In this document: positions 6,343 to 18,056 of the stretch, in pieces
Position numbering within the stretch: position 1 is the first letter of the stretch
Layout: each line of letters opens with the position of its first letter
Virus record (IMG/VR): IMGVR_UViG_3300007517_000278
Coordinates: 1-20,616 of that record
Direction: 5' to 3' (one strand)
DNA: 20,616 nt
Source of the DNA: a virus
Position numbers and translations under genes: made by a program
Notes under the pieces: model-generated
Database searches by the model: none
Told to the model about the DNA's origin: nothing
What the model saw: only the letters and a program-made list of their open reading frames with translations

Positions 6343-6828
6343 CTAGGGAGTAGTTTTTATTCCTTCAATTAATTGGAACTGACAGGTAATCCACGCACCA
6401 TCTTTAGCAAATTCAGGAGGGTCAACAAATAAAGCATTAAATCTCGCTTTATATTTTAATCCAGCCCCATCAAGTGTTGCGATTTGCCCTGCTGCTAATG
6501 CGCGAGTTCGGCTGATGAGTGAAACCCCTGGCTCATAAATAAAGTCAATAAAGTCATCAAGAATTAGATATTGAAATGGCCTTGTTAGAAGCCACAGGCT
6601 ATAAATCTGTTTTAATCTATCAGCATCAATTTGCTTAAATCTTGCACCGACAGTCCACGTATGCGGAGATTCATAAGGGATTGATTCAGCAATTACTGAT
6701 CCGGCAAACGAGCGGCTAAAAGTTGGGACTTCAATCCTTTGGCGTGGATAGTTAGTTTCTGAAAATGGCGAGGTAAAACGATTGCCAAGTGTCAAACTAA
6801 TTGTATTAAAAGTAAGCGCTAAGGTCAT
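6343..6828 (-). CDS. Putative distal tail-like minor tail protein, 161 aa
   Basis: The gene directly follows the tape measure and overlaps it by four bases (ATGA), the place of the distal tail or minor tail protein that caps the tube. The sequence is beta-rich at the N-terminus (residues 1-60), with a central FKQIDADRLKQIYSLW helix (about 64-79) and a DDFIDFIYEPG segment (91-101). The C-terminal strand WITCQFQLIEG is typical of small tail-tip adaptor proteins. Length is in the range for such adaptors, although classical Dit proteins are often larger. I assign the role mainly by gene order. No catalytic motif or membrane segment is present. Confidence 0.75.
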   Translation of the reverse strand: MTLALTFNTISLTLGNRFTSPFSETNYPRQRIEVPTFSRSFAGSVIAESIPYESPHTWTVGARFKQIDADRLKQIYSLWLLTRPFQYLILDDFIDFIYEPGVSLISRTRALAAGQIATLDGAGLKYKARFNALFVDPPEFAKDGAWITCQFQLIEGIKTTP

Positions 6829-9800
6829 AGTTTTGCCCGTCTAAAATTCGCAGTACCAATATCTGACAATACTTGACCGACAGCCGCTACAGGGTCAGGT
6901 GCGGAGACTGAGACACATCGCGGGGTATTAGCTAATTGCATTACAGCTACTTTTAGTTCGTCAATCTTGGCAACTACAGCAGCATCGCCAGTTTGAATAG
7001 TACTGCTCAAGTCTAGCCCACTTCCCATATCAGCGATTTGTAACGATGGCACTTTAGTTTTAAGTTGAGTGGCGACTGAGCTTGTAGTTAAGCCTCTTGC
7101 ATTAAATCCAGTTCTTTGACCACTTGCAATTCGCTGTTTCTCACTCTGATCAGCCGATAGAGTCTGAATGCCCCTAGAGGTCAATACCCGACCCGAGCTG
7201 GTAGATTCGGTAGAATCCTTTGCCACATCCTCAACTTTAGTCTTAGTTTCTCTAGCGTCTGCGATCGCTCCCCTTTGATCTAGAACCGCTCCATCTTGCT
7301 GCTGTTGTTGTGTTTTTTGCGTAGTGTTGAGAGTTTGACTTTCCAGGGCGTTAATCTGGCTTTGCTGTGTGATGGCTTCACCCGCCTGCTCTAAGCGCTT
7401 TTCTTGCAAAGCTAAAACCCGTTGTAGGCTTGTAATTTCGGCTTCAGTTGCTCCATTAACTAGGGCTTTTTGAATGGCGATCTCAGCTTCTACTTTGGCA
7501 ATTTCAGCCGCTATTTGCTGGCGCTCTAGTTCAATAGCGCGCTGTTGCTGCTGTAATGCAAGCTGCTGTAACTGAATTTGAAACTGTTGCTGTAAGAAGG
7601 TTCCTTGCTTTTGAATTTGCTGTAGCTTCAATTGTTCAACCCGTACCGAGTCCCCATCTCGACTAGCGGCCTCGATCGCTCTATCGTACCGGGCATTTTC
7701 AGCCCCGGCTAAAGCTGTTTGTAGATTCTGTTGAGCCGATAGCAGGCTGTTTTGTTGCCCGATAGCATTTTGCTGTAATTCGAGATTGCTTGAACGATCT
7801 TCCCTTTGAGCTTGTGAAGGTGCGAATGACTGGTCAATAGCCTCTAATGCAGCTTTTTTCCGCTCCTCATCTGCCTTTAGCGCCGCTGCCCTCGCGGCCT
7901 CTTGAGCCGCAATTTCCTTTTCGATTCGCGCTAAGTTAAGGCTTCCAATTTCTCCATTTAGCTCAATCTCACGGGTAGCAGCATCCTCAGCGCTTAAGAT
8001 TCCTTGCTGCCTTAAACCTTGAATCTGAGACAATTCATCTCGCCTTAATGCGATTGTTTGACCAATACCCTCCTGTTCAATCGCGGCAATATCCTTTGCA
8101 GCATTATCAGCCGATTTTGAACCCTCTAGCTGAGATTGTTTGATTGCAATAATTCGATCATTCTGACTGCTGGCGATCGCCGCTTCCGCTTCACGGTTAG
8201 CCTTCTCAATAGCATCTAAGGCTTTTCGCTCAATTGCTTCCCTGGCACTAGCTAGGTTTTCAGCAATTGCTAATCGAGCATCTGCCACTGCGCTATCAGC
8301 CGATAAAATTTGGCTGTTCAGTTCCTTAATCTGTTCAGGGTCAGTAGTTGAGCTTAATAAGTCACGCAGTTGAGTTGCTTGATTTTCAGCTAGAACTAAA
8401 CGCTCTTGACCTGATGATCGCTGTTGCTCTAAGAGTTGCGATTGACCATCAGCTTCAGTAGTCAAACCCAGAGCCACAGAGGTTTTAATCTCAGCTTCTC
8501 TGAGCTTGTCAGCATTCGACAGTTCAGTAGATCGCTGGGTATAAGCTTCAGTTGTGGCAGTGATAGCATCAGCCGCTTTTTTCTCTGCCGCTGCGATCGC
8601 GTCGCCTGCATCTACTGATGCATCGCTTGATTCTTTAGCAATTCCCGTCCGTTTTACTAAAGCTGTTTGCTCTGTTTCTAGCTCTTTTATGGTGCCATTA
8701 ATCTTGCCACTCAACTCCTCATAAGCAACCGTACCAAGCTTTTCTGGGCTAAGATTCGCTAAGTCTTCCTTCGCTTTAGTAATAGCTGCTGATAATAATT
8801 CAGAAACTTTTGCAGCATCCTCTTGAGAACCTGAAAAGGATCTAGACGCATCGATCGCATTGCCCATCGCTTGCTGTAATTCACTCACCCCTAGACGTGC
8901 ATCTTCAAGCCTTTTTTGTGCATTTGTTGGTACTTCTAAAAAGTCAGGTGGCAAGCCTGTTAATTTATTTATAGTGGAATTTACTTCATTGAACTTAGTA
9001 ACAAGGCCATCAATAAAATCAGTTGGAGGCGGTTCTTTTGGCAGAATTCCTTCGGCTGCTTCTTTAGTTTTGCCCATCTCAAGTTGTAAATCAAGCAATG
9101 ACTTTTCAATTTCTCCAGCGGATTCTTTGAAGCCTTTACCACCATCGTCAAATCTTGATACCGCTATCTGGACTGATGCCATGGCAATCGTAACTAGACC
9201 TAAAGTGAGCAGTAACGAACCTAAACCTAAAGCTGCCGCTTTTGCACTTTTGCCAAATGCAGATTGTGCCAGGGTAGCTATTGCTAATTTAGCTGCATTC
9301 CCTGTCAATCTCGCATTGGCTAGGCTTAACTGAGTATTAAATAATAATTGAGCCGAAGCCGCTCCGGTTTTTGCAATAGTGTTCAAAATTGTCGCGGCAG
9401 TCTCAGCAACTTGAGTTGCCACCAATTGAATATTCAGTAGTTTGTAAGTTGCGATTATTGCAACCGCAGCGGCGATCGCGCCTGTTAAAGCTGTCGTAGC
9501 TAAAATTGCGCCCTTAATTGGCGCAGGCAATAATAGAAATGCATTTAGGAGTCCGGTTGCAGCCCGAACCACAGGCTCAAGACCAATCGCTACAAATTTA
9601 CCGAGTTCTGCCGCTGCCGCACTAATCGAACCTGTAAAAAGATTGATACTCCCGCCTAATCCTTGCGTTAATTCAGCACTAGCCTTAGCCGATGCTCCTT
9701 GAAAGTTTTTAACTTCAGAAGTAACCTCAGCTATTCGTGCAGGCGTAGCATTCAAAAGTGCAGTTACGGCTAATCCGCCTTCTACACCGAATAGGGCTTT

Positions 9801-11225
9801 CGTTACAACATCTTGGTCTACTTGTGCTAGATTCCCTAATCCCGATTTTAGATCTGGTAAAATCTCAAGAATTGATTTCATACTGCCGTCGCTATTTCTA
9901 GCGGATGCACTAACAATATCAAAAGCTTCAGACATCTTTTTACTGCCACGAACCAAACCAGTAAACTCAGTCTCAGACCCGGCACTAGCTATCTTGAGGC
10001 GATCGAGTGCTGTGGCTAAGTTTCGTCCGGCCTTACCCCCCTGGATGCCAGCATCACCTAATAGACCTAACACAATCAAAATATCGTCTAAAGGTTGGTT
10101 ACTTGCCTTAGCCACAGTTCCGGCATAAACCAAGGATTCACCCAAACCTGAAATAGAGGTATTAGTAGAGTTTGCAGTTTGTACTAAGAGATCTGCTACT
10201 TCTTGAGTCTCACTAACGTCTTTGCCAAAAGCTCTAAGAGTTTTAGAAATGATATCGCCAACTGTTTCTAAACTCTCACCTGTAGCTTCTGATGCCTGTA
10301 CAATTCCAGCAAGGGCTACTTTAGTTTGTTCCGCAGAAAAACCAGCGCGACTAAGACTAATCGACATCTGAGCTATCTGAGCTGGTGTTTTCGTAGTAGC
10401 AATTCCTAAACGTTCAACTTCAGTTCGTAAAGCATCAAATTGCGCATTACCTAAACTCCCACTGATAACACCAGATTGTCGAAGTGCATTATCAAATTCT
10501 AGAAATTCTTGCGTACCCTTAACAAATGCCCCACCAATTCCAGCGGCGATCGCCCCCGCGCCTGCGGCAATCGCGGTTAGTCCATCTGTGGTTTGACCTG
10601 ATGACTTATTAATTTGATCAAACTGAGACTTAGTTATACCCAATTCCTGATTCAAAACTTGAAATTTTTGAGCTGTAGTTGCTCCTACTTGATTGAGTTG
10701 GGCTAACTTCGATACAGCTTCATTTGCTTCCTTTGCAGTCAAACCTAACCCCTGGGCAAATCTTTGAGCCGCGCCGTAACTTGTGCCAAGCGCATTGGCT
10801 AATCCAGCAACGTTTTTACTATTGTTTTGAATAGTTGCCGCTTGGGATCTAAGATTTCCATCTACTAGTTTTGCAGCATTTCCCAGTTGATACATCTGAG
10901 TAGCTGTTAGACCAAATTCAGCCTTCAGTATCTTATATTTTTCAGCCGTGGTAGCGCCTGCGGCATTTAATTGACCAATCCTAGTTACAGCCGCTTGCGC
11001 CTGCGTAGCGGTCAAGCCTAGGGCATTTGAGAACTGTTGAGCCGCGCCTACAGTACCGCCTAAAGTCTTAGATAGTTTCACAATCGAGCTAGTCTCGACT
11101 GAAACTTTTACCTTAACTTCAGGTTGTTTGATTTGTTGCTTAATTACATCAGATGCCTTCTGAGCATCCTTTATTAACTGAGCTAGAGATAGGGAGACGC
11201 TTAACTCAACTGATCCAACTGTCAT
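6825..11225 (-). CDS. Tail tape-measure protein, 1466 aa
   Basis: It sets tail length and is threaded in the tube lumen until ejection. Evidence includes extreme length and very high Ala, Gln and Glu content. A tape-measure core lies at about residues 240-410, with the family pattern of LSRAGFSAEQT, TVGDIISKTLRAFG, and GLLGDAGIQGGKAGRNL. Strongly hydrophobic segments at about 556-594 and 662-687 could span the host membrane during DNA entry. A long coiled-coil, Gln-rich region covers roughly 860-1330. The N-terminus carries two direct repeats (about 51-116 and 142-207) with the shared core G-A-A-Q-x-F then LGLTA and GATTA. Using the usual 0.15 nm per residue rule gives an upper estimate near 220 nm for the tail. 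A 41-base gap separates it from the upstream gene. Confidence 0.95.
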   Translation of the reverse strand: MTVGSVELSVSLSLAQLIKDAQKASDVIKQQIKQPEVKVKVSVETSSIVKLSKTLGGTVGAAQQFSNALGLTATQAQAAVTRIGQLNAAGATTAEKYKILKAEFGLTATQMYQLGNAAKLVDGNLRSQAATIQNNSKNVAGLANALGTSYGAAQRFAQGLGLTAKEANEAVSKLAQLNQVGATTAQKFQVLNQELGITKSQFDQINKSSGQTTDGLTAIAAGAGAIAAGIGGAFVKGTQEFLEFDNALRQSGVISGSLGNAQFDALRTEVERLGIATTKTPAQIAQMSISLSRAGFSAEQTKVALAGIVQASEATGESLETVGDIISKTLRAFGKDVSETQEVADLLVQTANSTNTSISGLGESLVYAGTVAKASNQPLDDILIVLGLLGDAGIQGGKAGRNLATALDRLKIASAGSETEFTGLVRGSKKMSEAFDIVSASARNSDGSMKSILEILPDLKSGLGNLAQVDQDVVTKALFGVEGGLAVTALLNATPARIAEVTSEVKNFQGASAKASAELTQGLGGSINLFTGSISAAAAELGKFVAIGLEPVVRAATGLLNAFLLLPAPIKGAILATTALTGAIAAAVAIIATYKLLNIQLVATQVAETAATILNTIAKTGAASAQLLFNTQLSLANARLTGNAAKLAIATLAQSAFGKSAKAAALGLGSLLLTLGLVTIAMASVQIAVSRFDDGGKGFKESAGEIEKSLLDLQLEMGKTKEAAEGILPKEPPPTDFIDGLVTKFNEVNSTINKLTGLPPDFLEVPTNAQKRLEDARLGVSELQQAMGNAIDASRSFSGSQEDAAKVSELLSAAITKAKEDLANLSPEKLGTVAYEELSGKINGTIKELETEQTALVKRTGIAKESSDASVDAGDAIAAAEKKAADAITATTEAYTQRSTELSNADKLREAEIKTSVALGLTTEADGQSQLLEQQRSSGQERLVLAENQATQLRDLLSSTTDPEQIKELNSQILSADSAVADARLAIAENLASAREAIERKALDAIEKANREAEAAIASSQNDRIIAIKQSQLEGSKSADNAAKDIAAIEQEGIGQTIALRRDELSQIQGLRQQGILSAEDAATREIELNGEIGSLNLARIEKEIAAQEAARAAALKADEERKKAALEAIDQSFAPSQAQREDRSSNLELQQNAIGQQNSLLSAQQNLQTALAGAENARYDRAIEAASRDGDSVRVEQLKLQQIQKQGTFLQQQFQIQLQQLALQQQQRAIELERQQIAAEIAKVEAEIAIQKALVNGATEAEITSLQRVLALQEKRLEQAGEAITQQSQINALESQTLNTTQKTQQQQQDGAVLDQRGAIADARETKTKVEDVAKDSTESTSSGRVLTSRGIQTLSADQSEKQRIASGQRTGFNARGLTTSSVATQLKTKVPSLQIADMGSGLDLSSTIQTGDAAVVAKIDELKVAVMQLANTPRCVSVSAPDPVAAVGQVLSDIGTANFRRAKL

Positions 11226-11266
11226 GTTGAAATTTCTCTAGGTGTTCCAGGGTATAGTTCCCACAA

Positions 11267-11683
11267 TCAATCCATCAAAAATTCTTGACTCACAGTAAGG
11301 CTAAAGGTTTCAATGTTATCTAGTTTCAAACTCCTTAAAATTCTCTCAGCACTCACCAAACGTAAATGAGAGAATTGAGATTTCATTGTATCTAGGATTA
11401 ATGGCATAGATACTAAAGTGGTTTGAGTAATATCCCATTGATTCGCAATGATTTCAATACTAAAAGTTTGTCTAAAGCTTCCAAAAGAACTAGCAATAGG
11501 CACTCGGATACTTGGCACGATTACCAACTCCAAACCTGTTTTTTTGACCTCATCTAATAGCGGATCAGAATTGTCATCGATAACAATCGCGGGTCGAGTC
11601 TGACCATTGCTAAAGGTATAGATTCCAAGTTGACTCGCTAGAGCGATCGCCAGAACATTTCTAATCTCCTGAGAATTTATCAA
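11267..11683 (-). CDS. Putative tail terminator/tail completion protein, 138 aa
   Basis: Small alpha/beta protein located between the gp10-like gene and the tape measure, where many siphoviruses carry the tail terminator that caps the tube. A helix (residues 3-17) is followed by strands at about 52-60 and 70-80, and a final strand near 125-133. This fits the small alpha/beta fold of terminator proteins, but there is no diagnostic motif, so gene order is the main argument. The start appears to be TTG at 11681-11683, overlapping the previous TGA as TTGA, with an AAGG upstream. The nearest in-frame ATG is far inside the gene. Use of TTG with a stop overlap suggests that translation depends on ribosomes finishing the upstream gene. 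Confidence 0.75.
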   Translation of the reverse strand: MINSQEIRNVLAIALASQLGIYTFSNGQTRPAIVIDDNSDPLLDEVKKTGLELVIVPSIRVPIASSFGSFRQTFSIEIIANQWDITQTTLVSMPLILDTMKSQFSHLRLVSAERILRSLKLDNIETFSLTVSQEFLMD

Positions 11684-12033
11684 AGTCTTGACCTTAATCC
11701 CTTTTCAAAGATATTCTGTTGCTCAACTCTGCGGATTGCCTCAGCCATCCAATCGCGCCCACCCACCCTTGCACCATTCCGGCGCGTATAGCCTCTCCGC
11801 ACGGCATTAGCATAGTCTACGGTATTCCTGAGAATGGCAGATCTGCTTTTAATATCGATTCTTTGGCTATCCCTTAATTTTCCAGTGTCGATGATATCGC
11901 CATCAAAGCCATCAAATACCCCTGGCTCAGCGATGACCTCTAAAGCAGCCCGATGAATGGCGAGGGCAGTTTGCCCCATTGAGGTTTCTGCCGCCCTGGT
12001 AATTTTCTCTAAATCGATCCTGACTTTAATCAT
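11680..12033 (-). CDS. HK97 gp10-like neck/minor tail protein, 117 aa
   Basis: The protein fits the gp10-like pattern: an N-terminal amphipathic helix (residues 6-35), a DTGKLRDS segment (49-56) followed by a short strand, then an N-T-V-D-Y-A-N-A-V motif (70-78) and a basic Gly/Arg turn. The WMAEAIRRV helix (95-103) ends the fold. In gp10-family proteins the conserved tyrosine-alanine motif followed by Gly and a C-terminal helix is characteristic. They act at the head-tail joining interface or as tail-completion proteins. The start ATG shares a base with the previous stop (TAATG type junction). Family assignment is by motif memory, not by a search, and is fairly confident. Confidence 0.8.
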   Translation of the reverse strand: MIKVRIDLEKITRAAETSMGQTALAIHRAALEVIAEPGVFDGFDGDIIDTGKLRDSQRIDIKSRSAILRNTVDYANAVRRGYTRRNGARVGGRDWMAEAIRRVEQQNIFEKGLRSRL

Positions 12034-12428
12034 TAGGGATAGACCACAAAAGAATTAGGCAGAAACCATCCTTTAATTTCCTCTACTAAATCTATATCAA
12101 GGTCTTTTAGTACCTGATTACGTCCTGTAAATCTTAGTAAAAACGTACCACTTAAACCCTGATAAATGGCAGTACAGATTGAATCAGGTTGAACCCGAGC
12201 AATTAAGGAACTTGGGGTGACTAGATACCCCTGGAGATACATCGCATTAGAATCAGCGCCAGGGGGTCTAAATCCGATGGGAACCCGTCGCACCCCCATC
12301 ATGGCTGTAGCTATAACATTAAGATCTGCTGACCTCCAATTGCCCCGTAAGTCCTGCTCTAGTGTTGCAGATTCAACAGTGAAGGTTGCCGTAAGGATCT
12401 CAAACTGAGTAAAATTTTGAGTAGACAT
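12033..12428 (-). CDS. Putative neck/tail structural protein, 131 aa, first gene of the structural operon
   Basis: First gene of the minus-strand structural operon. The sequence is mostly beta-prone, with a central VRRVPIGFRPPG loop (46-57) and a C-terminal helix KDLDIDLVEEIKGW (about 108-121). No family is recognised. Its position before a gp10-like gene makes a head-closure or connector role likely, but this is context only. The upstream 64 bases lack an obvious consensus housekeeping promoter on the minus strand. It shares one base with the next gene, so it is the lead gene of a run of coupled cistrons that continues to the tail tip. Confidence 0.75.
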   Translation of the reverse strand: MSTQNFTQFEILTATFTVESATLEQDLRGNWRSADLNVIATAMMGVRRVPIGFRPPGADSNAMYLQGYLVTPSSLIARVQPDSICTAIYQGLSGTFLLRFTGRNQVLKDLDIDLVEEIKGWFLPNSFVVYP

Positions 12429-12492
12429 AGAGAAAATTCAGGATCTAATTAATAGTTCCTATGGCAATTTCTAAAAAAGTTTTTCAAAACCC
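12429..12492 (-). other. Upstream region of the structural operon without clear housekeeping promoter
   Basis: Reading the minus strand from the duplicated promoter toward ATG 12428, I find A/T-rich segments (for example TTGAAA and TATTAA words) but no pair with a 16-18 base spacer that approaches TTGACA/TATAAT. The tail operon must start here or read through from farther upstream. An alternative sigma factor, such as the one encoded at 14227-14967, would explain the missing consensus (inference). Confidence 0.35.
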
Positions 12493-12521
12493 TTGACATT
12501 ACCCCTAGATTTTGGCATACT
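12473..12521 (+). repeat. Direct repeat copy 1: duplicated promoter cassette
   Basis: A 49-base segment that matches 12848-12896 at 47 positions. The two differences are adjacent (TT versus GC) just after the -35 hexamer. The cassette covers an A/T-rich upstream part with the small inverted repeat GTTTT-TC-AAAAC, the -35, the whole 17-base spacer and the -10. Flanking sequences of the two copies are different, so the promoter itself is the duplicated unit. Confidence 0.95.
12493..12521 (+). promoter_or_regulatory. Consensus promoter P1 (TTGACA-17-CATACT)
   Basis: The perfect -35 TTGACA (12493-12498) and the -10 CATACT (12516-12521) are separated by 17 bases. An A-tract and the GTTTT-TC-AAAAC inverted repeat lie directly upstream and could serve as UP element or operator. 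Transcription would begin near 12528 and read through a G+C-rich leader of about 130 bases into the small acidic protein gene at 12659. Confidence 0.8.
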
Positions 12522-12522
12522 A

Positions 12523-12658
12523 AAAGAGCGGGGGGAGAGACAACCCACCGAGGCGGTGCAACCCCGCGACAGAGGCAAACCCCTCTTACCGCTGGGACGA
12601 GACCGGGTGAAATTGCTGGTGATGAGCCTGCGCGAAAATCGCCTAGGAGGGCACGGAC
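12523..12658 (+). other. G+C-rich leader between P1 and the 53-aa gene
   Basis: About 135 bases of leader with roughly 58% G+C in the sampled part. Complementary words AGCGGGG (12527-12533) and CCCCGC (12561-12566) could close a stem around an inner ACC/GGT pairing. A frame beginning at GTG 12556 (basic peptide of about 45 residues ending at 12693) overlaps the start of the downstream gene in another frame. It has a purine-rich GGGGGAGAG too far upstream for a good ribosome-binding site, so I treat it as doubtful. No known riboswitch class was recognised. Confidence 0.35.
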
Positions 12659-12820
12659 ATGGACGCTTTTGTTTTGGTAAAGAAAAATGGTGAAGGCTTC
12701 TGGGAAATCTTGAACATCGGCCTAGGAGGGCTGATTGCCGAGGCAGACACTCTGGAAGAGGCGATCGCGCTTCTAGAAGAGAGCGGCTATGAGGCGGGCG
12801 ACTGGAGGGTTGAAGGTTAA
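12659..12820 (+). CDS. Small acidic protein, 53 aa (accessory/moron candidate)
   Basis: Not in any family I recognise. The ATG at 12659 is preceded by a perfect AGGAGG (12645-12650) eight bases upstream, the strongest ribosome-binding site in the window. The product has about 12 acidic and 3 basic residues, so it is strongly negative. The N-terminal strand (MDAFVLVKKNG) and Gly-rich turn are followed by a helix ADTLEEAIALLEESGYEAG (29-47), a small beta-alpha fold. It is expressed from its own promoter P1, with no partner in the same transcript before P2. Small acidic phage proteins are often inhibitors of host enzymes or DNA mimics, but that role is only a possibility here. Base composition is richer in G+C than in the tail genes next to it. 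Confidence 0.75.
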   Translation: MDAFVLVKKNGEGFWEILNIGLGGLIAEADTLEEAIALLEESGYEAGDWRVEG

Positions 12821-12847
12821 AGGCTAGGGAATGGATCAACCATTCCC

Positions 12848-12896
12848 AAAAAAGTTTTTCAAAACCCTTGACAGCACCCCTAGATTTTGGCATACT
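12848..12896 (+). repeat. Direct repeat copy 2: duplicated promoter cassette
   Basis: Second copy of the 49-base promoter cassette, with 47 of 49 bases identical to 12473-12521. It begins with the same A-tract and GTTTT-TC-AAAAC element and ends at CATACT. The bases after it (TAAGAG) still resemble copy 1 (AAAGAG) for a few positions, then diverge completely. Confidence 0.95.
12868..12896 (+). promoter_or_regulatory. Consensus promoter P2 (TTGACA-17-CATACT)
   Basis: Identical hexamers and spacing to P1: TTGACA at 12868-12873, CATACT at 12891-12896. Start of transcription is expected near 12903, giving a short leader of about 26 bases to the ATG at 12929. The conserved spacer word CCCCTAGATTTTGG in both copies could be an operator shared by the two genes. 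Confidence 0.8.
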
Positions 12897-12928
12897 TAAG
12901 AGAGACAGGTAAAGAAAAGGAGACCCCG

Positions 12929-13189
12929 ATGAACTACACCGCGATCGCAGCCCAGCTCAAGCAGACGACCGACCCAGAAGTGACGCTGGAAATCGCAGCC
13001 ACCTGGTCACGCCGGGAAATCGAGAAAGCCACCACTGAGTGCAATGCACTTGCAGCAGAGGGTGATGAAGATGATATCGCCCCAGCGATTGAGCGCCTCG
13101 CCATTCTAGAGCTGTGCAGCAATCCTGCATTCGTCGCAGGCTGTAAAGCCCACTGGGACAAGCTAGACGCCATGCTGAACGCTGCCTGA
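12929..13189 (+). CDS. Small acidic helical protein, 86 aa (accessory/moron candidate)
   Basis: Unrecognised, all-helical-looking protein. Helices can be drawn at about residues 3-12, 15-24, 26-43, 50-63 and 66-84, separated by an acidic loop GDEDD (45-49). Acidic residues outnumber basic ones by about two to one. Three cysteines (35, 63, 72) are not in a metal-binding spacing. I chose ATG 12929 because AAAGGAG (12916-12922) lies just upstream. A longer reading from a TTG at 12887 would start inside the P2 promoter. The gene has about 62% G+C in the sampled 60-base line 12961-13020, clearly above the tail operon, and starts with a HIP1 octamer in its fifth to seventh codons. It shares its promoter design with the 53-aa gene but not its sequence. 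Confidence 0.8.
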   Translation: MNYTAIAAQLKQTTDPEVTLEIAATWSRREIEKATTECNALAAEGDEDDIAPAIERLAILELCSNPAFVAGCKAHWDKLDAMLNAA

Positions 13190-13193
13190 GTTT

Positions 13194-13209
13194 AAGGGCG
13201 ATCGCCCTT
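13194..13209. repeat. 16-bp perfect palindrome around a HIP1 octamer
   Basis: AAGGGCGATCGCCCTT directly follows the stop of the 86-aa gene. The core GCGATCGC is the cyanobacterial HIP1 word; here it is extended by four matched bases on each side. No T-run follows, so a terminator is doubtful. It could form a short hairpin at the mRNA end. Confidence 0.6.
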
Positions 13210-13236
13210 GTGCCACTATCAATCTTAGGGAGAAAA

Positions 13237-13473
13237 ATGAACTGCCCACACTGCAATAGCCCCATGAAAAAATGGGGCAAATCTAAGTCAGGTCATCAGG
13301 TTTGGCGTTGTTTAGAATGCTGCAAAAATACGACAGGATTTACTGTAGGACGACCTGTAGGCACTATAGGAGAATGCCCCAAGTGCAGTAGCAGCCGCAC
13401 TAGACATACGACATCTAGGCAACGTCCCAGGGGTAGATGCGGTGATTGCGGTGCGACTTGGAAACTGGATTAA
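13237..13473 (+). CDS. Double zinc-ribbon protein, 78 aa
   Basis: The protein has four CxxC pairs: C3/C6, C25/C28, C47/C50 and C68/C71. This gives two consecutive zinc ribbons of nearly equal size (about residues 1-33 and 45-74). The first (CPHC...GHQVWRCLEC) resembles the zinc ribbon at the N-terminus of IS1/IS1595-type transposases. The second has a basic, Arg-rich loop between its knuckles, suggesting nucleic-acid binding. I chose ATG 13237, which has AGGGAGA just upstream; a GTG frame start at 13210 would lie in the palindrome. The stop overlaps the convergent DUF3102 gene by four bases, and a 12-bp palindrome AGAAAATTTTCT (13474-13485) follows. There is no catalytic domain, so it is not itself a transposase. 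It may be a small regulator of transcription. Confidence 0.8.
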   Translation: MNCPHCNSPMKKWGKSKSGHQVWRCLECCKNTTGFTVGRPVGTIGECPKCSSSRTRHTTSRQRPRGRCGDCGATWKLD

Positions 13474-14225
13474 AGAAAATTTTCTGCCTCACTTAGCAGT
13501 AAGTCGCTCAAATTTCCAAGTCGAGATGCTGTGCAAATTCGAGTTAGAATTTCTTCTAAGAATTCAACCCTGGTACGCTCAATTTCTAATTCAGTAGATA
13601 ATAATTCAATCTGACTTGATTGATATTGCTTGGCACTGTGCGGAATTTTATTAGGATACTTTGGATGTAACTCACTAATTAATAGAGTTACTTCTAACCC
13701 ATCCGATTCCATATTTATCAGACCATCAGAGATAGAATCTTTGATGGTCATTTGTTTGCCCTGATGAACCCCGTTTTGAACTGTGATAGATTTCCCCTGG
13801 TGCAAACATAGGGTATCGGTGCCTGATTTGAGCGCTTTAGCTCGGGCATGGCTGATGTACTCCCCATCTTGAGCCATCACAATCGCCTGATCCCTTATGG
13901 ATTTAGAGTCAGAATTCGATAGCTCATAGAGTGCAGATAAATCGAAGTTGTCCAGATTATGGACATCTTGAAAAGCCCTCGCTACATTCTCGAATTTATT
14001 AGCAGTTGATTTGCCCCAAGCAAATTCTAGTTCTAGCCATTTTCGATAATGACCATAGCCTAAACAAGATTTTACCTCTAATAATAATCTGCCGATTTCA
14101 ACAGCACCGTAAGTTGTTTTACGGATTATCCCTCGGATTTCTGTTTTGCATCTTTGCGAAATGTCTCTCTGGGTTTCAGATAAGACATCATAGTTAAATA
14201 CATTAATTAATTCTAGATTTGGCAT
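13470..14225 (-). CDS. DUF3102-family protein, 251 aa
   Basis: The N-terminal half matches DUF3102: a helix around 24-36, then EIGRLLLEVKSCLGYGHYRKW (43-63, the conserved IGxxLxxxKxxLxxGxxxxW pattern), then FAWGKSTANKFENVARAF (68-85), a helix-turn-helix-like stretch. ALYELSNSDS (98-107) follows, as in many cyanobacterial plasmid and phage members. The family is linked to plasmids, phages and ParB-like or replication-associated contexts, its precise role is unknown. A middle region repeats the word HQGK (142-145 and 154-157). A coiled coil of about residues 204-228 ends the protein, suggesting oligomers. It begins one base after the sigma gene stop, so both are probably on one transcript. DNA binding is likely, the target is unknown. 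Confidence 0.85.
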   Translation of the reverse strand: MPNLELINVFNYDVLSETQRDISQRCKTEIRGIIRKTTYGAVEIGRLLLEVKSCLGYGHYRKWLELEFAWGKSTANKFENVARAFQDVHNLDNFDLSALYELSNSDSKSIRDQAIVMAQDGEYISHARAKALKSGTDTLCLHQGKSITVQNGVHQGKQMTIKDSISDGLINMESDGLEVTLLISELHPKYPNKIPHSAKQYQSSQIELLSTELEIERTRVEFLEEILTRICTASRLGNLSDLLLSEAENFL

Positions 14226-14226
14226 T

Positions 14227-14967
14227 TTATATTACTGAATAAAGATTGATAGACCGGAGACGTCGCAAGCCTTCAGAGATCCAAAGTTCTACCAGGGTAG
14301 GCTCAACTTGATAGGTCTTGGCAATATCGATGGTGCTGAGTCCCTTAAAATATCTAGCTAGAATAATGCTCCGATAAATTCTAGGCAATCTCGCTACTTC
14401 ACTCCGCACTATTTTATATATCTGCTCATCATCTTCAGTTTCAGAAGTTAGAGAAACAGCATCATTCAGATCTAATACAATTTTGCGTGCTGTCACTTCA
14501 GATATTTGTTTCCATTGAACTTCTGAGATCCCGATTGATTGCGCTGCCTGCTGTTCAGTAATTTCTAATCTGCCTGATGCGATCGCCCGACGTTGGATGC
14601 TTCTCACCTTACTTGCAGCTTCGATTGAGCGACGGGGCACTTTGCCTAAATCCCATGAGTAATCACGTAAAAAGTGCTGAATCTCGCCATTAATGTAAGG
14701 TATGGCGAATGAGCTAAAAGCATAACCCTGGCATGGTTGAAACCTCTCAACAGCCTTAATCAAGCCGATTCTAGCAACCTGACATAAATCCTCATAGGGC
14801 ACTGCGCAGATTTCTTTCCACCGATGCGCTTCATCCCTAGCGAGGCCATCATTCAAATCGACTAAGTGATTTCTTGAGGCTATTGAGCGATTAATCGCGT
14901 ATTCCTTGAAACATAATAATTCTTTATCGTTAAACATCTGACCCATAAGAAATCTTATTTCTATCAT
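14227..14967 (-). CDS. SigF-like sigma-70 family RNA polymerase sigma factor, 246 aa
   Basis: Directs RNA polymerase to specific promoters. Numbering from ATG 14967, region 2 covers about residues 25-115, with the hallmarks EDLCQVARIGLIKAVERF and AFSSFAIPYINGEIQHFLRD. This matches the pattern I know from cyanobacterial SigF (group 3). Region 3 (about 118-155) is followed by an acidic linker and region 4 (about 188-240), with LPRIYRSIILARYFKGLSTIDIA-type helices and a recognition helix near 218-238. The frame is open up to 15108, but that extension would overlap the divergent tail-tube gene, so an internal ATG is used. 14967 and 14937 are both possible, neither has a good ribosome-binding site. 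The location between two structural arms suggests a late-gene regulator (inference). Confidence 0.88.
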   Translation of the reverse strand: MIEIRFLMGQMFNDKELLCFKEYAINRSIASRNHLVDLNDGLARDEAHRWKEICAVPYEDLCQVARIGLIKAVERFQPCQGYAFSSFAIPYINGEIQHFLRDYSWDLGKVPRRSIEAASKVRSIQRRAIASGRLEITEQQAAQSIGISEVQWKQISEVTARKIVLDLNDAVSLTSETEDDEQIYKIVRSEVARLPRIYRSIILARYFKGLSTIDIAKTYQVEPTLVELWISEGLRRLRSINLYSVI

Positions 14968-14977
14968 GGCATAAAGC

Positions 14978-15007
14978 TTGTGGGAACGCTCATACAGAAA
15001 CCATAAT
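14978..15007 (+). promoter_or_regulatory. Weak promoter candidate for the tail-tube operon
   Basis: TTGTGG (14978-14983) and CATAAT (15002-15007) with an 18-base spacer lie just upstream of ATG 15021. The leader would be very short, at most about 7-8 bases, and only TTGAG is available as ribosome-binding site. The match is poorer than for the other plus-strand promoters, so another sigma factor may act here. Confidence 0.3.
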
Positions 15008-15020
15008 CTGTTGAGAAAAA

Positions 15021-15950
15021 ATGGCAAGCCAAGTTTTGAGCGGATCGGGTACTCAAGTACTTTTCGGAATCTTGCATCCCTCTTTGTTATCACAAGATCC
15101 TGTGCCACTACCTCCTGATGTCCTAATAACGTTAGCTAGCGCGGCTGTGGTCGGTGCTGCAACCCTGACTACTGCAGCTTTAGCCAAACCTCTACCCGCA
15201 GGATCAGCATTGCAATTCTACCCACCTGCGGGGGCAATCGCAGTAGTCCTGAGTGCTGCTGCTCTTAAAGGCGCGACAACAATAACTGTGACTGCTCTAT
15301 CGGCGGCTGTTGCAATCGGGGCAAAAATCCAATTTCTTGATTATGAATTTAGTGTTGAGGTAACTGCGGTTGCTGCTAGCAGCGCAACAACCATCACAGT
15401 CAGACCCCTGAAGCAAGCTCTTTTAAGTGGAGCTGCCGGAAGGGTATTTGCGGGTATTTTTCAAACTGCCTATACATCTGCTGATGCTACTACAGGCGCG
15501 ATTTCACTCAGTGTCTTAGCCTTGGATGAGGCGATCGCCACTGCCTCTATCGCGCTTCATCGCGGACTGCTGTTGCTCCAGGGGGGTACGTCTGTATCCG
15601 AGGAGGTTTCTACCGATGAAGAGTCAGTAGTAATTTTCGGTGATGGCGCGGGGTATGCAAATGGATCAGCTACAGGCGCGAGTTGGACGATGAGTTATGA
15701 AGCCCTGGTGCTTCCAGGGGAGCCTGGTTATTATCGTCTCAGCTTTGCCGCTCGTAATGCCGTTAAAGGAGTTTTCGGGTATGTCGTAAAACGCGATACA
15801 CCAGCATCGGGATTCATTTTTGGTGAGCAATTTGAGGGTCTATGTCAGTTAGTGGGAATCTCAAAAGATAATCCCTCAGATGGTAACATTACATTCAGCA
15901 CGTCCTTTAATGGACGCGGTGAACCCACGAGTACGCCACCTCGCAAATAA
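15021..15950 (+). CDS. Major tail (tube) protein, 309 aa
   Basis: Polymerises into the tail tube through which DNA passes. The C-terminal half follows the tail-tube pattern: SWTMSYEAL (221-229), PGYYRLSFAARNAV (235-248), a YVVKRDTPASG segment (254-263), and a final NITFSTSFNGRGEP (289-302). The N-terminal half holds an Ala/Thr-rich repeat: about residues 33-66 and 74-105 share the pattern LxxAAxxGAxTxTxxAL...LPAGsxxxF, and a weaker third unit is at about 112-140. Repeats of this kind are common decoration or spacer elements in phage tube proteins. Start ATG 15021 lies 54 bases from the divergent sigma gene start. It is separated from the tape measure and on the opposite strand, unlike the usual order. 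G+C is about 48% in a sampled line. Confidence 0.75.
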   Translation: MASQVLSGSGTQVLFGILHPSLLSQDPVPLPPDVLITLASAAVVGAATLTTAALAKPLPAGSALQFYPPAGAIAVVLSAAALKGATTITVTALSAAVAIGAKIQFLDYEFSVEVTAVAASSATTITVRPLKQALLSGAAGRVFAGIFQTAYTSADATTGAISLSVLALDEAIATASIALHRGLLLLQGGTSVSEEVSTDEESVVIFGDGAGYANGSATGASWTMSYEALVLPGEPGYYRLSFAARNAVKGVFGYVVKRDTPASGFIFGEQFEGLCQLVGISKDNPSDGNITFSTSFNGRGEPTSTPPRK

Positions 15951-16169
15951 ATGCTCACATCTCTGACTGGACATGTCATATTCGCCTGCCATGTGAAAGT
16001 GTCAGGCGATTTTTTCAATGCTGGCTTATTAGTTTTAGATGCTAGTTTTGTGCCAGGGGTTCATGAATTATGGGATGCTGAAAATAATCGTTATTGGGTA
16101 TCGGTAGAAGGAACCCCTGGTAGTCTCAGTTATGAAATTGACTTGAGGCGATGCGATGCTCCCCTTTAA
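15951..16169 (+). CDS. Hypothetical protein, 72 aa, between tail tube and chaperone-like genes
   Basis: Starts directly after the tail-tube stop (TAA followed by ATG), so translation is probably by re-initiation. The sequence is mostly beta strands: VIFACHVKV (9-17), GLLVLDASF (25-33), NRYWVSVEG (45-53), and SYEIDLRR (60-67). It lacks membrane segments. The WDAENNRYWVSVEG part resembles a small beta-sheet domain. It overlaps the next gene by 14 bases, and its last codons read CTT TAA, which is a possible +1 frameshift site. Its position and size suggest a tail-assembly accessory protein, but nothing is diagnostic. Confidence 0.7.
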   Translation: MLTSLTGHVIFACHVKVSGDFFNAGLLVLDASFVPGVHELWDAENNRYWVSVEGTPGSLSYEIDLRRCDAPL

Positions 16170-16896
16170 TTTTGCGCCTGAATTATTCACAATTGGCACT
16201 CTATCAATTCCCCGATATGGTTGCTTAACTGTAGCCGAAGCGATCGCACTCGACAGCTTGCTAGAATCTCAATCGGAACTGCTCAGCACTGTAGGAGATA
16301 GTGCCGAATTCGTGGCGATTCTCCATCTAAATCCACTATTGGCATCGCTTGTTTTAATTTCTAGGCATGATCCAAACTGGACTTTAGAGAAAACAGTAAA
16401 TACATTCTCTTTAGAAGAAATTAGGCAGATTGCAGATTTTACCTTGGGGGAGCGACGCCGCTGGAAAGATCTAAGCAATCTACCTACAGAAGATGGATAT
16501 GGAAAACCTACGGATTGGTCTGAGATTTTTTGGTCACTCCAGTTACACTATCCAAATGAAACGAGATTTAATTCTGAACATTTTAGCAGTTGCCCTATCC
16601 TCATTATTGAGCAAGCCATTACAGCAGCTACTCGATTAGAACTAGAGAGATCACATCGCGCCGCGATTCCAATATCGCTGCTAGGTGTGTACAGCCTGAT
16701 GAGCCAGGGGCTAAAAAATATAGAACCTGCTCACTTCAATCCATTTGAAAGGATGCTGAATCAGGCCGAAGCTAGAGAAGAAATTAAACCAGAGATTGCC
16801 CAAACTTTGATTGGATTAGTCGATTCTGGCAAAGTTCCAACATGGGCGATCGCCATGATTCCCCTGGGTAAAATGAGGCTAGCGGCGAAATCCTGA
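16156..16896 (+). CDS. Putative tail assembly chaperone-like protein, 246 aa
   Basis: Directly downstream of the tail tube gene, where tail-assembly chaperones normally sit before the tape measure. The N-terminal part reads LFTIGTLSIPRYGCLTVAEA (10-29), a pattern of a short beta hairpin followed by a helix entry seen in chaperone-type tail proteins. A middle PTDWSEIFWSLQLHYP segment (117-132) and helices rich in Leu, Ile, Glu and Arg follow. No catalytic motif or membrane segment is visible. The ATG at 16156 has GAGG (16145-16148) seven bases upstream, so independent initiation is well supported; it overlaps the 72-aa gene by 14 bases in the +1 frame. The family call is from context and pattern only. 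Confidence 0.7.
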   Translation: MLPFNFAPELFTIGTLSIPRYGCLTVAEAIALDSLLESQSELLSTVGDSAEFVAILHLNPLLASLVLISRHDPNWTLEKTVNTFSLEEIRQIADFTLGERRRWKDLSNLPTEDGYGKPTDWSEIFWSLQLHYPNETRFNSEHFSSCPILIIEQAITAATRLELERSHRAAIPISLLGVYSLMSQGLKNIEPAHFNPFERMLNQAEAREEIKPEIAQTLIGLVDSGKVPTWAIAMIPLGKMRLAAKS

Positions 16897-17778: not shown

Positions 17779-17804
17779 ACTTAAAAATTTATTTGATTTT
17801 GCCC

Positions 17805-17834
17805 TTGACGTTCTATGTATACCTCGATTATAAT
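17805..17834 (+). promoter_or_regulatory. Promoter P4 (TTGACG-18-TATAAT)
   Basis: TTGACG (17805-17810) and a perfect -10 TATAAT (17829-17834) are 18 bases apart. Transcription should start near 17841, leaving a leader of about 27 bases with AAGGG (17855-17859) before ATG 17868. The -10 lies in the centre of a long inverted repeat. Confidence 0.8.
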
Positions 17835-17844
17835 TGAGATATAC
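17817..17844. promoter_or_regulatory. Operator candidate centred on the -10 of P4
   Basis: Arms GTATACCTC (17817-17825) and GAGATATAC (17836-17844) are complementary at eight of nine positions, and the centre ATTATAAT is itself palindromic and contains the -10. The 28-base element is symmetric at 12 of 14 pairs. Binding here would block polymerase directly. Confidence 0.55.
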
Positions 17845-17867
17845 CAAGCAACCCAAGGGCAAAAACA

Positions 17868-18056
17868 ATGAACGACCAGTACTTCTCAGACGCTTCACAA
17901 GAATATCTCGATAGCCTAGACAACGACGCACGGGAAGGCTACATGGAGGGCTTCACCGGGACTAAGCCCACAGTCAAAGGTAGACTTTTTGGAATGCGTC
18001 GGGCAATGTACTTTAAGGGATTTAACCAAGGCAAACTCGACCGGACTAAGGCATGA
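17868..18056 (+). CDS. Small hypothetical protein, 62 aa
   Basis: Unrecognised. The N-terminal 30 residues are acidic and helical (DASQEYLDSLDNDAREGYM); the C-terminal half is basic, with GRLFGMRRAMYFKGF (38-52). A repeated GxxxG-like glycine and aromatic pattern (YMEGF, YFKGF) suggests two similar helix ends. Hypothetical functions such as DNA or RNA binding through the basic half cannot be proven. It has its own promoter P4 with an operator-like element and AAGGG eight bases upstream of the ATG. It is followed within three bases by the TTGACA of promoter P5. Confidence 0.75.
   Translation: MNDQYFSDASQEYLDSLDNDAREGYMEGFTGTKPTVKGRLFGMRRAMYFKGFNQGKLDRTKA

Follow-up and report, generated by a model that had tools for sequence, protein, structure and literature searches.

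Introduction

Two kinds of described system were compared with the locus reported here. Criteria by which prophage morons are recognized have been given (PMC2920897), and a moron-type placement, antisense to the lytic genes, has also been described (PMC7067206). The other kind is the PeSL, a promoter-stem-loop cassette of T4-type phages (Arbiol 2010; Comeau 2014, as cited in PMC4503421). In this study, we analyzed a linear IMG/VR virus record of 20,616 bases, the whole of which is referred to as the window, and focused on a region in which nearly the same promoter sequence stands twice in front of small genes.

Results

A 49-base promoter-like sequence is present in two copies

The initial annotation had proposed that 49 bp, comprising a −35, the spacer, a −10 and an upstream element, are duplicated. 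This was confirmed: the segments 12473-12521 (copy 1) and 12848-12896 (copy 2), both on the + strand and 375 bases apart, are identical at 47 of 49 positions, with coordinates exactly as first noted. The only two mismatches are adjacent (TT/GC) and occur where the spacer begins. Exact direct repeats in the window reach 26 bases, compared with 17 bases at most in 100 Markov-simulated windows, and the runner-up ungapped match to the 49-mer within the window reached 28/49. When up to three mismatches were allowed, the core pattern occurred twice in the window, at the two copies, against 0.04 occurrences expected. The window thus holds no further copy.

In copy 1, an A/T tract containing GTTTTTCAAAAC (12479-12490) is followed by the −35 TTGACA (12493-12498), a 17-nt spacer, and a TGG-CATACT extended −10 ending at 12521. 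Each copy is thus laid out as AAAAAAGTTTTTCAAAACCC-TTGACA-17 nt-CATACT with TGG ahead of the −10, and GTTTTTCAAAAC, a palindrome just upstream of the −35, is placed identically in copies 1 and 2. Among 13 promoter-like sites scored in 11500-16500, the two copies ranked first and second (TTGACA-17-CATACT plus TGn). Judged from these motifs, each copy is a predicted near-consensus sigma-70 promoter with an extended −10, that is, a strong promoter of the bacterial type. The likeness between the copies ends sharply at the promoter edges on both sides; the upstream flanks are unrelated (9/40 bases match), and the gapped alignment of the copies stops 8-9 bases beyond the −10.

A hairpin, GGGAATGG-ATCAA-CCATTCCC (12828-12848, + strand), is located between the 53-aa gene and copy 2, directly ahead of the latter. 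It has no adjoining U run and is a possible weak terminator. The hairpin is found at copy 2 only, as the sequence preceding copy 1 folds no better than chance. No canonical terminator was called after either transcription unit.

The copies precede two unrelated acidic protein genes, the second followed by a zinc-ribbon gene

Copy 1 is followed by a G+C-rich leader of 137 bases (12522-12658, + strand), which folds no better than expected by chance (z −0.2) and has no Rfam match. Next comes the gene of a 53-aa acidic protein (12659-12820, + strand; pI 4.05), with the Shine-Dalgarno sequence GGAGG before its ATG and a codon score of +0.17, where the known genes of the window score 0.08-0.24. An AlphaFold single-sequence model of this protein has a mean pLDDT of 91 and a beta-beta-beta-alpha-beta order. 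Comparison of the model with a viral structure library placed small phage proteins on top, and one named DpnD/PcfM-like BFVD entry matched at E 2.7e-3 with a TM of 0.86 by query length. The corresponding family, PF14207, showed no sequence match to the protein at E 10. In the PDB, HicB-like proteins gave weak matches; matches to designed PPR proteins and lectins were regarded as chance.

After a short leader, copy 2 is followed by the gene of an 86-aa acidic protein (12929-13189, + strand; pI 4.37), which has the Shine-Dalgarno sequence AAGGAG and a codon score of +0.06 on the same scale. The protein is predicted to be all-helical (pLDDT 83.5, good in one of five models). Its fold matches were discarded, the best one (Z 7.0 at rmsd 7.0 over 81 residues) representing helical-bundle background. 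The 53-aa and 86-aa proteins gave no alignment with each other, so the description of the two as sequence-unrelated, small and acidic held.

The initial annotation did not include a third small gene of this strand, which encodes a 78-aa basic protein (13237-13473, + strand; pI 9.7) with two Cys4 zinc ribbons. Its full-length codon score is negative; the zinc ribbons are nonetheless recognizable, and the IS1/IS1595-type zinc ribbon exceeds the NCBIfam cut-off. Matches to the Lar families PF14354 and phrog_6422 were weak (E 0.0023 and 0.0011) and much weaker than the IS1/IS1595 match; the PF14354 score of 18.6 bits does not reach the Pfam cut-off of 28.6. Because the 78-aa gene lies downstream on the same strand, promoter copy 2 probably drives two genes, and the 86-aa and 78-aa genes are probably cotranscribed. 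The sub-threshold Lar-like zinc ribbon and the DpnD/PcfM-like fold give weak hints of defense inhibition by the island proteins, and a PADLOC search for defense systems returned no match.

The base composition of this region is deviant. From 12526 to 13189, G+C is 55%, against 43% for the whole window, and this is the most G+C-rich stretch of 660 bases that the window contains. The island is therefore richer than its surroundings, as had been proposed, although the proposed figure of about 58-62%, taken from sampled lines, is not reached by the island as a whole; about 65% is reached only in the leader (12526-12658). GC3 is 0.58-0.64 in the 53-aa and 86-aa genes and 0.28-0.47 in other genes, and the composition of the 78-aa gene is less deviant than that of the two acidic genes.

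Neighboring genes and the virus

The left neighbor of the island is the first gene of the tail operon (12033-12428, − strand) and the right neighbor is a DUF3102 gene (13470-14225, − strand). Beyond the latter lie a SigF/SigB-like sigma factor gene (14227-15108, − strand) and then the major tail protein gene, on the + strand. The small genes run opposite to the flanking genes on both sides. The island had been described as wedged between late genes and oriented against the tail operon; this is correct on the left, where it is antisense to that operon, but on the right it adjoins the minus-strand DUF3102 and SigF-like sigma genes, which are not late structural genes. In its listed extent, the sigma factor frame shares 88 bases with the divergently oriented gene of the major tail protein. 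The true start of the frame is probably at about 14967, since similarity to the sigma factor of the record IMGVR_UViG_3300045391_004484 begins at residue 49. A search with a fragment of the sigma factor yielded three genome loci, all non-cyanobacterial. No sigma-70-type site scoring at least 9/12 was found within 200 bases ahead of the tail operon start (12428, − strand), and the tail operon promoter may be of the type used by the phage SigF-like factor. Elsewhere, an inverted repeat with 38-base arms (76% complementary) occupies 17793-17868, immediately before a 62-aa gene at 17868, and contains a promoter-like TTGACG-18-TATAAT site.

The window contains 23 HIP1 sites (GCGATCGC); the closest match of the tape measure is to cyanophage PSS2, and the top plasmid matches to DUF3102 are from Nostoc and Gloeothece. 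Taken together, these three observations led us to infer a cyanobacterial host, and the virus is probably a cyanobacterial tailed phage, a siphovirus. No viral relatives of the tail gene and the tape measure were obtained by peptide-pattern search, and tRNA and Rfam searches of the window gave no match. No integrase was found in the window, the record of which is a linear fragment, so that lysogeny is assumed here.

Distribution of the sequence and a distant relative

No exact-pattern match to the cassette was obtained in IMG/VR or in the GTDB species genomes, and region 12440-13240 had no blastn match among phages and plasmids. Using the DUF3102 alignment as the query, we collected 12 viral loci. 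With up to three mismatches allowed, the cassette was not found in these 12 DUF3102-bearing viral records or in two plasmids, and none of the DUF3102-bearing viral loci had a repeated promoter. The 53-, 86- and 78-aa proteins had no detectable relative in the collections searched. The collection scans demand an exact match at fixed bases and may have left out the nearest records, so the cassette is better called not common than unique. With no copy retrieved from IMG/VR, GTDB, phages or plasmids, none beyond the two in the window, and no repeated promoter at the DUF3102-bearing loci, the proposal of a mobile family of promoter-gene cassettes shuffled between phages is not supported.

The distant relative IMGVR_UViG_3300045391_004484 (70.5 kb), which has an integrase and a terminase, carries a sigma factor gene and a DUF3102 gene ordered as in the window (9268-10759 of its locus; 39% and 28% identity). 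The pair is thus a module common to two distant phages, in which the DUF3102 protein may assist the sigma factor. The relative lacks the island, and its tail genes do not adjoin DUF3102. On one strand, it has consecutive tail-completion-like, o11270-like, major tail protein, o16156-like and tape-measure-like genes. The window has the major tail protein and o16156 genes on the + strand (15021-16896) and their usual neighbors on the − strand (6825-12033). The tail cluster (6825-16896) is thus split and its major-tail-protein block inverted relative to the distant relative, with no direction of change implied. Since the major tail protein and o16156 genes are separated from the minus-strand tail genes by the island together with the sigma-DUF3102 pair, the island sits at a rearranged junction.

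Discussion

With the repeat, promoter geometry, gene layout and deviant composition observed here, we lean towards a moron-like island of a cyanobacterial phage, in which two units stand under a locally copied host-type promoter. The moron layout suggested by the initial annotation survives in its sigma-70-type promoters of the genes' own, deviant G+C, antisense orientation and small genes, which fit published descriptions (PMC2920897, PMC7067206), but not as a family of mobile, shuffled cassettes. The locus looks like an ordinary moron-type island with a locally duplicated promoter rather than a widespread mobile cassette.

According to the mechanism that we propose, a stretch of 50-60 bases, including the A/T-rich upstream element, the −35, the spacer and the extended −10, would have been copied locally, and two unrelated small genes would have acquired the same promoter in this way. 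There would be two transcription units with one promoter copy each, the 53-aa gene forming the first and the 86-aa and 78-aa zinc-ribbon genes the second. Host RNA polymerase with the primary sigma factor would read both units, either early or in the assumed lysogeny. Transcription of the small genes would then be independent of the minus-strand tail genes, which may depend on the phage SigF-like factor. The island proteins are probably directed at the host or at a competing phage and have no part in the virion. We consider it very improbable that cyanobacterial phages possess a hitherto undescribed system of promoter cassettes, with this island as one of its units, through which a copied promoter recruits small genes directed against the host or its defenses, here those for the DpnD/PcfM-fold, helical and double zinc-ribbon proteins.

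Alternatively, the two copies might be a co-regulated promoter pair of the phage control programme. GTTTTTCAAAAC would then be an operator or activator site, the likeness would be kept by selection rather than by recent copying, and the genes, including that of the zinc-ribbon protein, would be phage regulators and not cargo. The equal position of the palindrome in both copies is consistent with this, as is the adjoining DUF3102-sigma pair, which looks regulatory and is conserved in IMGVR_UViG_3300045391_004484. However, the spacer is kept at 15 of 17 positions, more than promoter or operator function alone needs, and the window has no other occurrence of the motif; we judge this explanation rather unlikely. 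A mobile promoter or PeSL-like promoter-stem-loop cassette, able to pass from one phage to another and to bring about the shuffling of genes, could account for the hairpin immediately before copy 2 and for the position of the island at the junction of the tail-cluster rearrangement seen against the distant relative. It is improbable, because the patterns used retrieved no copies from phages, plasmids, GTDB genomes or IMG/VR, folding at copy 1 is at chance level, and related loci have no repeated promoter.

Linear IMG/VR records are often fragments, and short repeats are known places of misjoining. The 49-base repeat might accordingly mark a point at which the metagenome contig was wrongly joined, and both the linear record and the unusual order of the tail cluster would suit such an artifact. 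Against this, the copies differ from each other, read pairs could bridge the 375 bases that separate them, the three small genes are co-oriented, and the island has HIP1 sites throughout, like the remainder of the window, making an artifact highly unlikely. A protein-coding repeat, in which a minus-strand 140-aa frame (12471-12893) that is open and in register begins and ends inside the repeat (375 = 3 x 125) and would carry MPKSRG[A/N]VKGFEKLF twice, was rejected on its negative codon score (−0.16) and is scarcely credible, as both repeat differences alter an amino acid (Ala/Asn) and the acidic + strand frames have both coding-type scores and ribosome-binding sites.

Returning to the moron-like island with a locally copied promoter, its genes would, if expressed in the host, become candidates for a role in lysogenic conversion or host takeover by cyanobacterial phages. 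The near-identical copies offer a clean case of how duplication of a short promoter could admit new small genes while leaving the phage programme undisturbed.

Among known proteins, the 53-aa product resembles DpnD/PcfM-like proteins (PF14207) in its predicted fold but not in sequence, and the 78-aa product shares Cys4 zinc ribbons with the Lar restriction-alleviation proteins (PF14354, phrog_6422), although it falls below the Pfam cut-off. Of the repeated promoter elements already known, PeSLs (cited in PMC4503421) come closest to the element of the island: both are promoter-bearing intergenic elements repeated amid small accessory genes, and a stem-loop stands beside copy 2. Two defining features of PeSLs set them apart from the island. 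The promoter and stem-loop of a PeSL are repeated as a unit, whereas the hairpin here lies outside the repeat and at copy 2 only; and PeSLs occur in many copies between shuffled genes, whereas this fragment record has two copies in the window and related records have none. The element was found in a single phage, one not shown to be T4-like. Compared with prophage morons (PMC2920897, PMC7067206), the island lacks a clear terminator and has no relative found, and one promoter sequence is common to its two units; it nevertheless resembles them in its small genes, its own host-type promoters, its deviant G+C, and its orientation opposed to the phage operons.
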